This document shows, one piece after another, positions 56,977-64,000 of a stretch of 64,000 bases of DNA. The position numbers and the translations under genes are program-made. Every line of letters begins with the position of its first letter. The stretch's first letter is position 1. The notes under the pieces were generated by a model. That model was given only the letters and a program-made list of their open reading frames with translations. It did no database searches and was not told the DNA's origin. The stretch comes from Thermofilaceae archaeon (GTDB lineage: Archaea > Thermoproteota > Thermoprotei > Thermofilales > Thermofilaceae), in contig JANXEW010000002.1 in assembly GCA_025057995.1 (NCBI GenBank), positions 124,001 to 188,000 on the forward strand, in the 5' to 3' direction.

Positions 56977-57261
56977 ATGACGCGGGATCAAGCAATAGGA
57001 GCAGCTTTAATGGTTGGTTCTCTAGCTGGCATCGCGATCTACGGCTGGCTCCTTCTTACCTTCACTACCGTTATCCTCCAGCTTACTGCATTCGTTGCAG
57101 TGGCTGGGGTTTTGGGAATTCTAGCTTGGATAGGCTACACTTTAGCTACGACGCCACCGCCGAAACCGATAGAGGAAATAGAGAAGGAGATAGAAGAAGA
57201 ACTTAAGAAGCTAGAAGAAGAAGCTAAAAAAGAGTCTTCAAGTAACGTTCAGGAGACGTAA
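56977..57261 (+). CDS. Small membrane protein: two hydrophobic segments plus charged cytosolic tail
   Basis: 94 aa; MTRDQAIGAALMVGSLAGIAIYGWLLLTFTTVILQLTAFVAVAGVLGILAWIGY then E/K-rich EEIEKEIEEELKKLEEEAKKE; 2 nt before the next ORF. Confidence 0.8.
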   Translation: MTRDQAIGAALMVGSLAGIAIYGWLLLTFTTVILQLTAFVAVAGVLGILAWIGYTLATTPPPKPIEEIEKEIEEELKKLEEEAKKESSSNVQET

Positions 57262-57263
57262 AA

Positions 57264-58940
57264 ATGAACTTCTATGAAAAAACGTTATTTTTCCTTTTCG
57301 CTGCTCTAGTTGGAGCTACAGTAGCGCTAGCCCAGCCAAGGCTCACAGTCGCAACAGACTCCAGCTTCTACGAGCCGGGAAGTAAGGTAACTGTGAGAAT
57401 TAGTGGTCCTCCGCAAGCCCCCCTAGGGCTAGAGGTCAGAGGTCCGAAAGGCGAGTTAGTTGTTCTACGGCAGCTCACTTTGGACGCTAGAGGAGTTGCG
57501 ATTTTCGCTTTTACCCTTGACCCCCAATGTAGAGAGGGGATCTACACGATTTACGTGGCTACGCCGGGCGCAGCTGCCAGCACAACCTTTGAGGTTGTCA
57601 CACGACCTTCGCCGATAATACTCATAGCCCCACCCGGTCAAGCCCTCATCGGGAAACAGGTTAACGTTCTCTGCTTCATATATCCGGGACTGCAAGTCAA
57701 GGTATCCGCCTATTCTAGGCAACATGGAGGAGATTGGATGCCCTTAGGCGAATACGAATCAAATTCCAGCGGATGGCTCATAATATATCTCACCCCGGCT
57801 AGCGAAGGAACCTACGAATTAAAAGTGGAGTTCCCCGGCACGCATGAGTACGGTCCAGCCTCAGCTATTGCAAGATTTAAAGCCGTTAAAACTGCGCCCG
57901 ACTGGAAGGTTGAAGCCCCACCAGTAAAATGGCTTGGGGAAACGCTTACCATCACTTGTGAAGGTTACGACGCTGTTATAGCTAGGACTATAGCTGGAGA
58001 GAAAACCTTCAAGTGTGGCGCTAAAGTGAAACTAGACACGCCAGGTCCATGGCTCTTCTATCCAGCTAAAGGCGATACGATGGGAACGCCTAGCATTATG
58101 ATGGTGAAAGCTAAGCTCAATACAACAGTGAAAGCTCCAACCGAAGTCGGTGTTAATGAACCTTTCTCGCTAGTGGCTAGCTTTACGCCGCCAGCGCCGG
58201 CTGTACGGGTTAACTTCGTGGACGCTGAAGGAACTGTTTTAGCAACAACGTTTTCAAAAGTAAACGGCACCGCTTTTGCACGAGCTTCAATAAGAAAGGC
58301 CGGCGAATACACTGTTAAAGCGATTCCACTTCCAACAAGTGTTTTCGAAATGGGTGAGTCTACTCCAGCGACTATCCGTGTGCTAGGTGAGAAACTACAC
58401 GTACAGTTAGTCGTTCTCGATGCTGCTGGAAGAAGGTTATACAACTCAGTTGTCGAAGTCTCAGGGGCGAGGTTTGACGCCCCTATGGGTGTAACAGATT
58501 TCACGGTTCGAGTAGGTGTGTACGATGTGAAAGTCTACTGGCGCGGCCTCCTAGTGTACGCATCAAGATTGACGTTGGAAGAACATAACGTAACGATCAA
58601 GGTTCCCCTTTATGACTTGAAAATCACAGTAGTCGACTTCCTAGGTAGACCAGCTGTAGGAGAGTTGGTAGAGCTCTACAATAACACTGAAAGGTTGGCG
58701 GTGGGCTCAGCGGGCGAGAACGGGCAACTCACCTTTATTAGAGTGCCAGTAGGAGCTTATACAGTTAAAGCTGGCGATGCCTCAAAAACGATCTCCGTAC
58801 CCGAGGATAGCGAAGTTAAACTCGTCCTCCCCCCTCCCTCCTGGCTGATTATTCTTGTAGTTTTTGTCATAGTACTTGTTATAATTATCCTAACAGCTCG
58901 TTTACATGCAAAAGTAACAATACGAAGGATCAAAAGTTAA
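57264..58940 (+). CDS. Secreted multi-domain Ig/macroglobulin-like surface protein with C-terminal TM anchor
   Basis: 558 aa; signal peptide-like N-term; RLTVATDSSFYEPGSKVTVRISGPPQAPLGLEVRGPKGELVVLRQLTLDARGVAIFAFTL...; C-term WLIILVVFVIVLVIIILTARLHAKVTIRRIKS. Confidence 0.85.
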   Translation: MNFYEKTLFFLFAALVGATVALAQPRLTVATDSSFYEPGSKVTVRISGPPQAPLGLEVRGPKGELVVLRQLTLDARGVAIFAFTLDPQCREGIYTIYVATPGAAASTTFEVVTRPSPIILIAPPGQALIGKQVNVLCFIYPGLQVKVSAYSRQHGGDWMPLGEYESNSSGWLIIYLTPASEGTYELKVEFPGTHEYGPASAIARFKAVKTAPDWKVEAPPVKWLGETLTITCEGYDAVIARTIAGEKTFKCGAKVKLDTPGPWLFYPAKGDTMGTPSIMMVKAKLNTTVKAPTEVGVNEPFSLVASFTPPAPAVRVNFVDAEGTVLATTFSKVNGTAFARASIRKAGEYTVKAIPLPTSVFEMGESTPATIRVLGEKLHVQLVVLDAAGRRLYNSVVEVSGARFDAPMGVTDFTVRVGVYDVKVYWRGLLVYASRLTLEEHNVTIKVPLYDLKITVVDFLGRPAVGELVELYNNTERLAVGSAGENGQLTFIRVPVGAYTVKAGDASKTISVPEDSEVKLVLPPPSWLIILVVFVIVLVIIILTARLHAKVTIRRIKS

Positions 58941-58953
58941 AAAATTATTTCTC

Positions 58954-60162
58954 TTAATTAGCTCGCTTTCTAGCCTTAAGAACGTAGCCTCCAGCAAACC
59001 CTGCTACAAGGCCTAACACTAGTAGGATTACAGCTATCGTAGTTGCAGTATTAGCTTGAGAAACAGCGCTAGTTAGCTGGCGTTCTAGTTCGGCGTTCTG
59101 AGATCTCAACAGCTGGTTCTCTGCTGTAAACCGTTCAATCTCCCTACGCGCAGCCGAGAGAGCATCCTCCGACTCTTTTAAGTCCCGCCTTAACTTCGTG
59201 TTCTCTCCCTCAAGCAAATCAACCAACCCCTCTAGCTCCTTAATTCTACTCAAAGTTGCGTTCAACTTACCTTCCGCTTCGCTCAGTTTACTGCTCAAAC
59301 CTTCTACCCTTTCCTCGAGTTGAATAGTATCGAGAAGTCTTCTAACCGCTAGAAGGATTTTAGAAACTAAGTCTATACTTTCAAGAGAATCGTCTACGTA
59401 ACTCGGGGAGACTTCACTTAAAGTATCGTCGGTTAGATCGAGCAATGCTAGAACTAGGCTGTCACTAGTAGAGTTCCTTAGCTTGTTCGAGAACCCTCGT
59501 AAAGCGTCGACGGAGCGCTCAAAAGCTAGCCTGATCAACTGATTCGTCCTACTTAAGGCACTTGAAGCCAAGCTGTTTGCAGCGTTAAAATCACCGGCGG
59601 CATACTTGGCTTCCCCCTCCCGCAGAGTAGCGTTGATTTCAGCGATGCCTCTTGAAACATCTAGAATGACACTTTCAAGACCGAGAGGCTGTAGTGACGA
59701 ATTCAAGCTTAAGAACACTCGAAGCAGTAGTTGAAGTCTACTCTTTGCACTGCTCAATGCGGCAGCGGCTGCAGTCTCTGGAGTTGGACCTGGGGGCGGA
59801 GAAGGAGGTGGAGCGGGGGCACCCGCTTCTACTTCAAAAGTAGTTGAGGTAGACTCACCGCCACCAGCAACATAGACCTTGTACGTACCGGTTCTACCTT
59901 GAGACGGTATGGTGAAACTAAAGGAAGCTTTCCCAACAGAGTCCGTAGTCACCTGCTTAACAGCGATAAGAGCATCAGTTGGATCGGTCACCTGAACCCC
60001 ATATACGGTGTTAGGTCTACCCTGAATCGATAAAGTAACGGTCTCACCGAGACGGTACGTTCCCTTGTCGGTCGAAACACTTAACGGGCTAGAGGCCGCT
60101 ACTAGAAACAGGATTGCTGCAGCCATAAAGACAAGGCTTATTGCACGCTTAGCCCTCATCAA
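58954..60162 (-). CDS. Secreted protein: N-terminal beta-sandwich-like domain, long coiled coil, C-terminal TM anchor
   Basis: 402 aa; LSVSTDKGTYRLGETVTLSIQGRPNTVYGVQVTDPTDALIAVKQV...; coiled coil LSEAEGKLNATLSRIKELEGLVDLLEGENTKLRRDLKESEDALSAARREIE; TM TTIAVILLVLGLVAGFAGGYVLKARKRAN. Confidence 0.85.
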   Translation of the reverse strand: MMRAKRAISLVFMAAAILFLVAASSPLSVSTDKGTYRLGETVTLSIQGRPNTVYGVQVTDPTDALIAVKQVTTDSVGKASFSFTIPSQGRTGTYKVYVAGGGESTSTTFEVEAGAPAPPPSPPPGPTPETAAAAALSSAKSRLQLLLRVFLSLNSSLQPLGLESVILDVSRGIAEINATLREGEAKYAAGDFNAANSLASSALSRTNQLIRLAFERSVDALRGFSNKLRNSTSDSLVLALLDLTDDTLSEVSPSYVDDSLESIDLVSKILLAVRRLLDTIQLEERVEGLSSKLSEAEGKLNATLSRIKELEGLVDLLEGENTKLRRDLKESEDALSAARREIERFTAENQLLRSQNAELERQLTSAVSQANTATTIAVILLVLGLVAGFAGGYVLKARKRAN

Positions 60163-60262
60163 CCAGCATCAAGTCTCTACAGTATTTAAGTAGTGCGGTA
60201 GGTCAGTTAAAGATAATAAAAAACTATTTAAAGATAATAAAAGCAAAAAATTTTCTATCTTT

Positions 60263-60715
60263 CTATTTTTTCTGTTTTCTTACTGCTACAATAGCGGCAG
60301 CCGTTAGAACAAATAGAGTTACAGCAGTTAACAAGAGCGGAGATAGATCCTTGACAGCTTCACCGCCCACAAGTGAGGTAACCCTAAAGCTAGCCGGTGT
60401 TGCGGGCGCACCGCTGGTCTCACAGGAGACATAAACGAGATAGGTACCAAAGCCAGCTGTAGAAGGTATCTGCCACGACGTACTCCCCGTACCAGTCGGC
60501 GTTAAGGTAATCTCCCTAGCTAAGACAACGTTATTAAAGGGATCCCGAATTTCGATACCACACTTTTCTCCTGAAGCACCTCCCCCTATAGAGATGGTTA
60601 CAATACCGCCTGGAGTAAGAGTAGCTGGAGTCACTGTAACCGTTGGCTGAGCCAATCCGAGCAAAACGACGAACATCGCCGCCGTTAAAAGTAATTTAGC
60701 CTTCATCCCCCTCAC
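60263..60715 (-). CDS. Short secreted single-domain paralog with C-terminal TM
   Basis: 150 aa; PTVTVTPATLTPGGIVTISIGGGASGEKCGIEIRDPFNNVVLAREITLTPTGTGSTSWQIPSTAGFGTYLVYVSC; TM LLLTAVTLFVLTAAAIVAVRKQKK. Confidence 0.82.
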   Translation of the reverse strand: MRGMKAKLLLTAAMFVVLLGLAQPTVTVTPATLTPGGIVTISIGGGASGEKCGIEIRDPFNNVVLAREITLTPTGTGSTSWQIPSTAGFGTYLVYVSCETSGAPATPASFRVTSLVGGEAVKDLSPLLLTAVTLFVLTAAAIVAVRKQKK

Positions 60716-61167
60716 CCTGTTACAGTTATAGAAGTTGTTCTAGCCGGTGCTAATGGAGTCCAGGCAGCACCCTTTTCAGATGGAAAACCGTTCCACACGT
60801 AAACTTCGATTCCGTACGTGCCGATAGGATCTGTGAGCCTGATCCCTATACCTCCACCAAAGCTTTTTGTTTCACCAGCAGATATTTTAGTCCTCGTCAT
60901 CAAAAGCCCTAACATGCTGGGACCATGCCATAAAGTAATAATTTGCAGATAATCGAGAGGAAACTGGGCATAATAGTATGCTGCGGGAGCTGATACTTCC
61001 GTCTCAATCACTGCTATCTCTCCCCGTCTAAAGGAAGTTTTAGGAACTCCGGTGTAGTCCTTTGTTTCAACCTTAGTGATTGTTAACGGGTAAGTCGCTT
61101 GTGTTAATGTTAACAGTGGTATCAGGGTTAATACTAAGATAAAAGCTGGTTTTTTCACTTCTTTCAT
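60712..61167 (-). CDS. Short secreted beta protein, signal peptide but no C-terminal anchor
   Basis: 151 aa; FILVLTLIPLLTLTQA signal; 4-nt stop/start overlap with the downstream gene (60712-60715). Confidence 0.78.
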   Translation of the reverse strand: MKEVKKPAFILVLTLIPLLTLTQATYPLTITKVETKDYTGVPKTSFRRGEIAVIETEVSAPAAYYYAQFPLDYLQIITLWHGPSMLGLLMTRTKISAGETKSFGGGIGIRLTDPIGTYGIEVYVWNGFPSEKGAAWTPLAPARTTSITVTG

Positions 61168-62133
61168 CGTTAAACTATAGGCTAAGCCTTATAAAAGATT
61201 ATCCTTTCTCTAAAAACTAGAATTTCTGTAGTAAGCGTGATACAAAATACTAAGAGTCGAAACGTTGGAGTGATTTAATGTCAGCATGACAAGTATTATT
61301 ATAACTTCCTCCGCTGACCCTAAGTTCAATAAGTTGATAGAATATTTTCAAAGTTGAAAGTTGTAGACTCAAATATTAGAACAAAGGTTGGAAGGGTAAC
61401 TGGATGAGCCCTTAAGTACTAATTTTTAAAGTAAAAGGTTAAATGAAAAGAAAAATCCTACGATGCTACTTATAATTGTCACATATTTTTTAGCTCATAT
61501 TCGTTAGATTAATCCCAAAGTAGGTAGTCTGTAACTTAAAAATTATCGTAGTAACTGTAGGTATCTTTATCTGCGAAAGTAGCCCTAGAGAGTGAAATAT
61601 GATGGAAGAACTTTTGATAAGAATAAGTTATAAAATTTATTATTTTTCGTTAGCTCTTTCAGAGTCATAATGAAACTTTCTGAATAGCTGTCAGACGACA
61701 CATGTTTGATATGTTAAATTTTCACTAGAAAAGGGGTGTTCTTTATAATACTTTAAGAGGCAGAACTCGCACATGTTTCAAGGATTTTAGATCTTGGTCT
61801 ATTTACTTTACGAGGTCTCAGCCAAAGGAGTCAACGCCATCGGCTAATTCTAAAATTGTTGATCAATCTTTATTATCAAAACTCTAAACTTCGGTAAAAC
61901 ATGAATAGATTATGTTAATATGGAATTATGTTAACTAAGACAAAACTCTTAAGACGATAGCGATCGGTGTACTTTTACTAAATATGAGATTGTAAATACC
62001 ATCTCTCTTAGTGCTTTCAGGTAAAAGTTGGGGAAAGAAGTGACTAGCGCCGTGCATCTCCTTGCTTATGATCTGTGAAAAGTGATGACTTCTTTATTCC
62101 TGCAGCCTTTTGTTCGATTGAATTTTTTAAAGC

Positions 62134-62607
62134 TTGTCACTAAGGAGCAGTGGTGGTACTTTGAAAACTAGTGGTAGGTCTCGTGTCCTTTTTTCCTTGT
62201 ACGTGACTAGTTTAATTCTTTCTTCAGTTTGGGTTTTACGCGAATATAGACTCGTAACGCTAGGGTACGAGGTTCTCTGGGCCGGTGCTTCATCGGTAAA
62301 TCCACTTTATGATAGCTTTCTTAACCCTCTTGTTTTTCTCGATTGTAAACTCGAGGGGGATAGCATTGTCATGCGTATTTTAAGGACGTATTCGCAACCG
62401 GGTAGAGAAAACGTCACAATTTTCATAAAGCTTCAACTATTTAACGGCGAGACCGTGAAGATGGGAGCGTGGAAAAATGTTGCGTTGGGTGAAATAATCC
62501 AGTTATCATTTCCACTGGATTTCAACGCTGGGCAAGTGATTAGCTATAGAGTTGAGATTTACTTGGAAGAGAAGCTTGTGTTAGCAGAGGAGAAGCTACT
62601 ATGGTAG
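62134..62607 (+). CDS. Hypothetical protein with one N-terminal TM
   Basis: 157 aa; RVLFSLYVTSLILSSVWVLREYRLVTLGYEVLWAG; stop overlaps the next start; start codon uncertain. Confidence 0.65.
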   Translation: MSLRSSGGTLKTSGRSRVLFSLYVTSLILSSVWVLREYRLVTLGYEVLWAGASSVNPLYDSFLNPLVFLDCKLEGDSIVMRILRTYSQPGRENVTIFIKLQLFNGETVKMGAWKNVALGEIIQLSFPLDFNAGQVISYRVEIYLEEKLVLAEEKLLW

Positions 62608-64000
62608 GTGCTATCAAAAAAGTATCGGTTAAGTCCTTAATGAGTTGTTTTACAAACCTACTTTTCCTTTTCTCGCTTGGGTTCTCGGCCCTTTTAATGT
62701 GGGTATCTCTTTTGTCGATCCGAGGCTTTGCCTGTCCAGTCTTTGAAGGGAAGTTAGTTTCTAAAACTATCTTCGTGCCGCTGGGTTTAGCCGGGGCTAT
62801 TGTATGGTCTTTCGCGTTATTCACCGCTTCTATAGGCTTAAAGCGGTCCATCGGCTTGCTTCTAGTGATCGCTGCTCCTTTAGCTCTGTTCGTTTCGCTC
62901 TGGGTTGATAACCCTTTACCTCTCATAATTGCGACGTTTGCGCTCCTCGCATGTTGGCTGAGTATCCACCCTAGTTATCTTACCACCGCTCTCTTAGTTG
63001 GGATTTGTGTTATAGAATCCCTGGTTATAACATACTTAATGTTTCGGGCGATAGGTTTACCAACACCTCTATCTGCTGCATTGCCGTTTCATTTCTCTCT
63101 CTACTGTTTTGTAGCCCCAATTTTACCGCCTATTGTTATGCTATCCTTCTTCTCTCTCTTTCTACTCCCGTTACTGAGAGGGATGCCACAGAAATCTAGT
63201 TCTCTCCGCTTTGAGTCTAAAGCGACTACTCTTTTTTCACTATTAGTGAGTTTTATGCTTTGGCTTGTGCTCTACTCTCCTAGCCTGAACCCGGGCCCGA
63301 GACTAGTTGGTGTCGACTCAAGGATACGTTATTACCCTCATGCAATGATACTACTTGAGGAAGGACCTTCAGCTGTACTACGCATCGGTTACGATAGGCC
63401 TCTCTCTTATACAATCCTTCTATGGCTTGCAAGTTGGCTGGGACCTTTCGAAGCTGTGAAATTGCTCCCTCTTCTCTCACTATTATTCTATGTAGTTTCA
63501 TGTTATATCGCCGCTAAGGAGCTTTGGGGTAAGCATGTCGCTAGTCTAGCATCGTTGCTAGCCCCCTTCACGTACACGGCCACGGCTGGGCTTTATGGAG
63601 GTCTCTTTAACAACTGGTTCTCCCTATCATTAGCTTTGCTTGCAAGCGCAGCTCTCGCAAAATGGCAGAAAACCGGAAAGATTTTGTGGTCAATTATCTA
63701 CCTGTTTCTGCTAGCATCGTCTGTAGCTTCCCACGTTTACATGGGAGTTGTGACCTCCTTTGTTTTCACTGTCACACTGTTACTACAGCTCGTGAGAGGT
63801 CCCAAGCGCTCCAGGATCGCCTCGCTACTGTTAATCCAGCTTGTTCTCTTTACAATTGGGGTCAACTTTGCTGATAAGATCATCGAGAGCACCGGACAGC
63901 GCTTGCTACCTTCAAAGATAGTGCAGGATCTTGTTAACGCATGGTTAAGGACATCAGCTAAACGCCCTCTCTTCTCAGCGGTTTGGTGGGATGACTTCAG
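62601..64000 (+). CDS. Large polytopic membrane protein, candidate GT-C-type glycosyltransferase, truncated by window edge
   Basis: Open from ATG 62601 to the window end without a stop (about 466 codons), absent from the ORF track; MVGAIKKVSVKSLMSCFTNLLFLFSLGF...VGVDSRIRYYPHAMILLEEGPSAVLRIGYDRPLSYTILLWLASWLG... Confidence 0.8.
   Translation, partial: MVGAIKKVSVKSLMSCFTNLLFLFSLGFSALLMWVSLLSIRGFACPVFEGKLVSKTIFVPLGLAGAIVWSFALFTASIGLKRSIGLLLVIAAPLALFVSLWVDNPLPLIIATFALLACWLSIHPSYLTTALLVGICVIESLVITYLMFRAIGLPTPLSAALPFHFSLYCFVAPILPPIVMLSFFSLFLLPLLRGMPQKSSSLRFESKATTLFSLLVSFMLWLVLYSPSLNPGPRLVGVDSRIRYYPHAMILLEEGPSAVLRIGYDRPLSYTILLWLASWLGPFEAVKLLPLLSLLFYVVSCYIAAKELWGKHVASLASLLAPFTYTATAGLYGGLFNNWFSLSLALLASAALAKWQKTGKILWSIIYLFLLASSVASHVYMGVVTSFVFTVTLLLQLVRGPKRSRIASLLLIQLVLFTIGVNFADKIIESTGQRLLPSKIVQDLVNAWLRTSAKRPLFSAVWWDDF

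Follow-up and report, generated by a model that had tools for sequence, protein, structure and literature searches.

A SlaB-like stalk encoded with a putative stand-alone docking domain: a candidate membrane-attachment cassette of a surface coat in a Thermofilaceae archaeon

Introduction

Two-component surface layers (S-layers) of the SlaA/SlaB kind are already known, and slaB has been silenced in Saccharolobus. Published SlaB comprises three sandwich domains, a 132-residue helix and a C-terminal transmembrane helix and forms trimers, and in the Sulfolobus model the C-terminal D6 domain of SlaA is proposed to contact the N-terminal immunoglobulin (Ig)-like domains of SlaB (PMC10903991). A 2017 review described the link between SlaA and SlaB as unclear and reported no SlaA homologue outside Sulfolobales (PMC5744192). 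In Nitrosopumilus maritimus, the tenth Ig-like domain of the S-layer protein NmSLP was not resolved in the structures, and its authors speculate that it serves in S-layer anchoring (PMC11153153). N. maritimus also has a SlaB homologue, and Nitrosocosmicus has neither the S-layer protein nor slaB (PMC11153153, PMC11559005). Here, we describe a group of genes at positions 56977-61167 of a 64,000-nucleotide stretch of a Thermofilaceae archaeon (the window; C22:124001-188000), in which a SlaB-like protein is encoded together with a free relative of this tenth domain. The genome is archaeal, 1.8 Mb in size and 91% complete. Handles beginning with G, C and L denote genomes, contigs and loci, respectively, and G000 is the genome of the window.

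Results

The 402-residue protein resembles SlaB in head, stalk and membrane anchor

All five open reading frames (ORFs) of a first-pass annotation, made from the sequence alone, were recovered at their coordinates and lengths in a window ORF check (Table 1). Hydropathy bore out the proposed topology, with a C-terminal transmembrane helix in the 558-, 402- and 150-residue proteins, two transmembrane helices in the 94-residue protein, and only a signal peptide in the 151-residue protein. A search of the whole genome with the 402-residue protein retrieved the 558-residue protein (E 1e-17), the 150-residue protein (E 1.4e-7) and a paralogue on contig C3 (E 9e-15), and the shared N-terminal unit is found at only these four places. 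The unit is an MG2-type β-sandwich. The 402-residue protein scores 39.0 bits against Pfam MG2 (PF01835), above the curated cut-off of 32.8, and the 558- and 150-residue proteins match the same family just below the cut-off (28.6 and 25.5 bits). The C3 paralogue (452 residues; L087:9327-10685, G000:C3) carries the MG2 head and a helical region without a C-terminal transmembrane helix predicted by hydropathy, and has counterparts in G001, G002, G003 and G006.

A profile of the 402-residue family, built from four orthologues (G000, G003, G014 and G024), was searched against all PDB sequences. The best match is SlaB of Sulfolobus acidocaldarius (8QOX_B; E 1.2e-12), which aligns in two parts, the head (independent E-value 5.8e-5) and the stalk with the transmembrane helix (4.4e-8). 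The NCBIfam SlaB model (NF040788) matches the 402-residue protein at 8e-6 over residues 10-111 and the 558-residue protein at 4e-4, and the orthologue in G024 is matched over two stretches (4e-15). None of these scores comes near the equivalog cut-off. Thus a known system is already recognizable at this locus, if weakly, where the first-pass annotation had seen none; its proposal of an S-layer stalk is supported. The 437-residue counterpart at locus L229 aligns as MG2 head, extra segment, coiled coil and transmembrane helix.

In the AlphaFold2 model of the 402-residue protein, an MG2-like sandwich (residues 28-112) is followed by a Pro-rich linker, a helical bundle and a 146-residue helix (residues 256-401), which contains the anticipated long coiled coil and the transmembrane helix near residue 369. 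The model was built from 8 sequences and has a mean predicted local distance difference test (pLDDT) score of 82 and a predicted template modelling score of 0.41, so the arrangement of the domains is uncertain; the alignments used for this and the 151-residue model are shallow (8 and 4 rows, from the window and related loci). Foldseek places the head of the model closest to MG2 of human alpha-2-macroglobulin (A2M; PDB 2P9R) at 1.7 Å (TMt 0.79), with 32% identity over the aligned part. Unlike in A2M, a single MG domain here sits on a membrane stalk. Of the A2M families, only MG2 reaches its Pfam cut-off, and no thioester family was detected; a sub-cut-off match to the A2M bait region overlaps the MG2 head itself.

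The 402-residue protein thus has in common with SlaB a signal peptide, a homologous N-terminal sandwich head, a long coiled-coil helix and a C-terminal transmembrane helix, and differs from it in having one sandwich, a helical bundle and a longer helix. Judged by its sequence, it is a distant relative of SlaB and not a SlaB equivalog. The Sulfolobales locus has the gene order SlaA then SlaB; here no SlaA-like gene was recognized next door, and the gene in the upstream position encodes only a docking domain known from the ends of lattice proteins. Proteins of about 400 residues with a similar coiled-coil and transmembrane stalk and an unrelated N-terminal domain were seen in the family members G013 and G009, which do not have the cassette (L017:1453-2664, L018:1471-2661).

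The 151-residue protein is a stand-alone relative of NmSLP domain 10

The first-pass annotation had described the module as sharing one β-sandwich-like domain. This holds for the three MG2 proteins and fails for the 151-residue protein, which lacks the MG2 unit and is predicted to form a different, remotely related Ig-like β-sandwich (AlphaFold; pLDDT >93 for most of the domain). Neither Pfam nor NCBIfam gave a match for it. A profile of its family (A2; 7 sequences from related genomes) gave only one significant match in the PDB, the C-terminal residues 1648-1732 of NmSLP (8C8K; E 4e-4). In the reverse direction, a profile of 13 NmSLP-like terminal domains retrieved four of 880 ORFs, all of the 151-residue family, the window copy not being among them, and hhalign gave 97.8%. 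A 27-member profile reached E 1.6e-34 against NmSLP, a value that is not independent because the profile contains NmSLP-like rows. On these profile comparisons, the 151-residue protein belongs to the same family as NmSLP domain 10, which we call the docking domain. In both systems the next gene encodes an anchor with an MG2 domain and a transmembrane helix. Whereas the docking domain of NmSLP ends a lattice protein of about 1700 residues, here it is a separate secreted protein that is not attached to an S-layer lattice protein, as also in G003 and G014. We reject the reading of the ORF as a truncated lattice gene: in G000, G003, G014 and several other families it is a free-standing gene whose product has a signal peptide. 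NmSLP-like genomes also encode secreted relatives of the docking domain of about 145-170 residues that do not adjoin an MG2 anchor (L184:6825-7325, L185:6437-6874).

A weaker link leads to SlaA itself. In sliding windows along the Metallosphaera-type SlaA (three genomes of one family; layout and length served to assign the type), resemblance to the docking domain is confined to the C-terminal windows (probability 93%; best non-terminal window 1.6%), and the C-terminal region shows no resemblance to MG2 (0.3%). A generic Ig similarity behind the match was controlled for by these two comparisons. The narrower profile A4 gives only 5%, and the link is therefore kept as weak; no match to the docking domain was detectable in the S. 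acidocaldarius-type SlaA. In contrast to SlaA, the 151-residue protein has no lattice part.

Docking-domain genes and MG2-anchor genes are paired across Thermoproteota

The docking domain was found in 102 of 398 genomes in a search spread over the phylum. In all 51 ORFs that were inspected closely, the domain sits 0-15 residues from the C-terminus, in proteins of either about 150-200 or about 600-1770 residues. The downstream sequence could be read in 49 cases, and in 40 of these the next gene is MG2-headed, usually with a C-terminal transmembrane helix; three of these loci were chosen after the pairing was seen. In 20 loci that had been fetched before the pairing came to light, an MG2-headed gene comes next on the same strand after 16 of 19 docking-domain genes, compared with 3 of 174 other genes (Fisher p 1e-17). 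Seven of ten downstream anchor genes match NCBIfam SlaB; the best (1.8e-29) adjoins a 1116-residue protein ending in the docking domain. In the NmSLP-like family of about 1700 residues, which judging from NmSLP probably represents ammonia-oxidising archaea, a gene for an MG2 and transmembrane protein of about 320 residues follows 96-120 bp downstream in most cases. The reports on N. maritimus and Nitrosocosmicus fit this pairing.

The pairing across the phylum supports the first-pass idea that the unanchored protein goes together with the anchors. A complete lack of co-conservation among relatives, which would have counted against that idea, is excluded. The 151-150-402 order recurs in G003, a same-genus genome that corresponds to a Thermofilum sp. 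metagenome-assembled genome (MAG; locus L227), and 151-402 in G014; a cluster of docking-domain, MG2-anchor and 94-residue genes occurs in a Brockarchaeota MAG and others. In G004, G008, G023 and G025, the docking domain ends a secreted protein of about 1070-1220 residues (53-88% identical between the four genomes), which is directly followed by an MG2-headed anchor (L083:5527-9030, L084:11967-15623, L085:650-3874, L086:1732-5397). The short MG2 protein of a Brockarchaeota MAG (L228:10374-10832) ends in VPEFP, a hydrophobic stretch and RRK, an end that resembles an archaeosortase (PEF-CTERM-like) signal more than a plain transmembrane anchor.

The five genes form two linked operons

The 150- and 151-residue genes overlap by 4 bp, and the two proteins are therefore probably co-translated. 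The spacing of a TATA-like element to the start codon suggests a possibly leaderless transcript of the 151-residue gene, and a second TATA-like stretch suggests that the 402-residue gene may have its own promoter. An ATG at 60159 is an equally good alternative start of the 402-residue gene, which converges with the 558-residue gene across 13 bp.

The 94- and 558-residue genes constitute a second operon near speE. The 558-residue protein (sub-cut-off Pfam matches to Big_3_5, 27.9 bits, and weakly to CarboxypepD_reg) has orthologues in G002 (64%), G003 (56%) and G006 (37%). In G002 and G006 the pair occurs without the minus-strand trio, which is cleanly absent from G002, since only 261 bp separate the 558- and 157-residue genes there; G003 carries both parts, but on separate contigs, the break falling between the two. 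The 94-residue protein has no Pfam family and a strongly conserved motif in its alignment (LQLTAF..WIGYTLATTPPPKPIEEIEKE). Its gene is present in 344 of the 398 genomes and is therefore not specific to the module. It lies within 17 kb of the best docking-domain gene in all 7 genomes where both share a contig and adjoins docking-domain/anchor clusters in G129, G094 and G264. The single five-gene module of the first-pass annotation is thus not sustained, G014 also speaking against it. The genes are two linked operons, and the 94/558 pair, which encodes a second MG2-headed surface protein, is inherited separately.

Table 1. Features of the locus (window coordinates; aa, amino acids)
Feature	Position	Strand	Description
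94-aa protein with two transmembrane helices	56977-57261	+	First gene of the 558-aa operon; E/K-rich tail, conserved WIGYTLATTPPPKPIEEIEKE motif
558-aa membrane-anchored surface protein	57264-58940	+	Signal peptide, MG2 head 57345-57596, Ig-like middle domain, transthyretin-like C-terminal domains, transmembrane helix
402-aa SlaB-like stalk	58954-60162	-	Signal peptide, MG2 head 59827-60081, Pro-rich linker, helical bundle
402-aa stalk, C-terminal half	Coiled coil about 59038-59397; transmembrane helix about 58978-59049	-	Followed by basic tail
TATA-like stretch TACTTAAATA	60183-60192	-	5' of the 402-aa gene; consensus match only, read directly
150-aa short membrane anchor	60263-60715	-	Signal peptide, MG2 head about 60380-60643, C-terminal transmembrane helix about 60281-60349
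151-aa secreted protein without anchor, putative stand-alone docking domain	60712-61167	-	Mature part about 60715-61089, Ig-like β-sandwich
TATA-like element CTTTTATAAG	61188-61197	-	21-30 nt 5' of the 151-aa start codon; consensus match only, read directly
157-aa protein, N-terminal transmembrane helix	62134-62607	+	5' of the polytopic protein gene; kept in G014 and G002
582-aa polytopic membrane protein, start only in the window	62601-63998	+	Remainder in L089:10602-12350

The 582-residue polytopic protein has invariant GVD..Y and RP motifs and is co-located with docking-domain and anchor genes in G014, G264, G195, G135 and G094. Family searches gave no match for it; it could be a membrane glycosyltransferase. 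Beyond the window (L089:12781-14484) lie a DUF1616 pair and a gene for a 229-residue protein with two transmembrane helices. The same trio occurs near docking-domain genes in G014, G208 and G129, and in G014 it is followed by MoxR, DUF4350 and DUF4129 genes.

Discussion

We consider, with a probability of roughly 0.6, that the 151-150-402 operon attaches a two-component coat to the membrane, either a SlaA/SlaB-type S-layer or a surface coat resembling one. The 402-residue protein would be a SlaB-type stalk, with its C-terminal helix in the membrane and its MG2 head facing outward; its long coiled coil would cross the pseudoperiplasm and is probably oligomeric, as in SlaB. The 150-residue protein would be a short-stalk version of this anchor. 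Docking of the terminal domain on the MG2 head of the anchor would couple the coat to the membrane. The 151-residue protein would provide this domain as a separate polypeptide, with one face on the MG2 heads and the other turned towards the coat. It may act as an adaptor, which we favour; it may also serve as a cap, or form the inner portion of a coat that has its outer subunit encoded at another locus. The docking-domain/anchor pair may also display other proteins, such as the fusions in G004, G008, G023 and G025.

Several points weigh against this reading. The similarity of the 402-residue protein to SlaB is distant, and in the stalk half part of it could stem from coiled-coil composition. 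Its score of 25 bits against an equivalog cut-off of 700 bits rules out only a close orthologue, the NCBIfam model having been built from Metallosphaera. In the AlphaFold model, one sandwich is followed by helices, in place of the two to three consecutive sandwiches of SlaB. Whereas the domain identities, the relationship to SlaB, the terminal position and the gene pairing are shown, binding of the docking domain to the MG2 head is inferred. The resemblance of the SlaA C-terminus to the docking domain is weak and confined to a single SlaA type. We infer both the existence and the identity of the coat protein. The free docking domain has no lattice part, and no lattice protein was identified in this genome, whose large secreted proteins were not listed. 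The protein of about 1070-1220 residues that ends in the docking domain was considered as a SlaA, but it matches nothing in Pfam, NCBIfam or the PDB. By eye its sequence appears closer to an enzyme than to a lattice subunit, and it is therefore not called a lattice protein. The cassette is also patchy in the family and absent from G001, G002 and most Thermofilum genomes.

One alternative is modular surface display, in which MG2 anchors and docking domains tether assorted secreted proteins (enzymes, binding proteins) without any lattice. This alternative is less likely, although it would account for the large docking-domain proteins without SlaA similarity in the four genomes and for the two docking-domain/anchor pairs present in each of G135 and G215; moreover, a SlaB homologue of S. 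islandicus belongs with a thermopsin-like protease (PMC6712394). However, in ammonia-oxidising archaea the same pair consists of the main S-layer protein and its SlaB homologue (PMC11153153), and nothing enzyme-like is joined to the docking domain in the window. The 151-residue protein might instead bind glycans and link the coat to glycosylated molecules of the cell surface, not to the MG2 head. Its closest Foldseek matches are the carbohydrate-binding domains of Wzt O-antigen transporters, the anchors contain N-glycosylation sequons (4 in the 402- and 5 in the 558-residue protein), and the polytopic candidate for membrane glycosylation is encoded nearby. We regard this as improbable: a TM-score of about 0.6 at 15% identity is generic for the fold, and the gene partner is consistently an MG2 anchor, including the short 150-residue one, which has no sequon. 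A complement-like or A2M-like immune or adhesion module, similar to the archaeal Ig-domain modules of Thermococcales, is very improbable: MG2 is an A2M domain and archaeal loci with A2M domains have figured as candidates in discussions of immunity (PMC8416519), but Pfam adds to MG2 only the sub-cut-off bait-region match and no thioester domain, the architecture follows SlaB, and the docking-domain/anchor pair is conserved and not hypervariable. A pseudopilus-like assembly, also raised by the first-pass annotation, was discarded, as neither a pilin-like feature nor a family match was found.

Beyond the attachment cassette itself, we propose tentatively that a C-terminal Ig-like domain docked on an MG2 head is the ancestral, phylum-wide fastening of S-layers in Thermoproteota, including ammonia-oxidising archaea, and that in Thermofilaceae, Brockarchaeota and other lineages the docking domain became detached as a free adaptor, which could couple different coats to the same anchors. 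The stand-alone docking domain and the phylum-wide gene pair appear not to have been described in the literature searched, which excluded most subscription papers.

How S-layers outside Sulfolobales are attached to the membrane is an open question (PMC5744192; PMC11153153). The pairing of the NmSLP domain-10 family with a SlaB-like MG2-anchor gene names both partners and the probable interface between them, which makes the attachment directly testable. The docking-domain/anchor pair also offers a sequence handle for S-layer and surface-display gene pairs in uncultured archaea.

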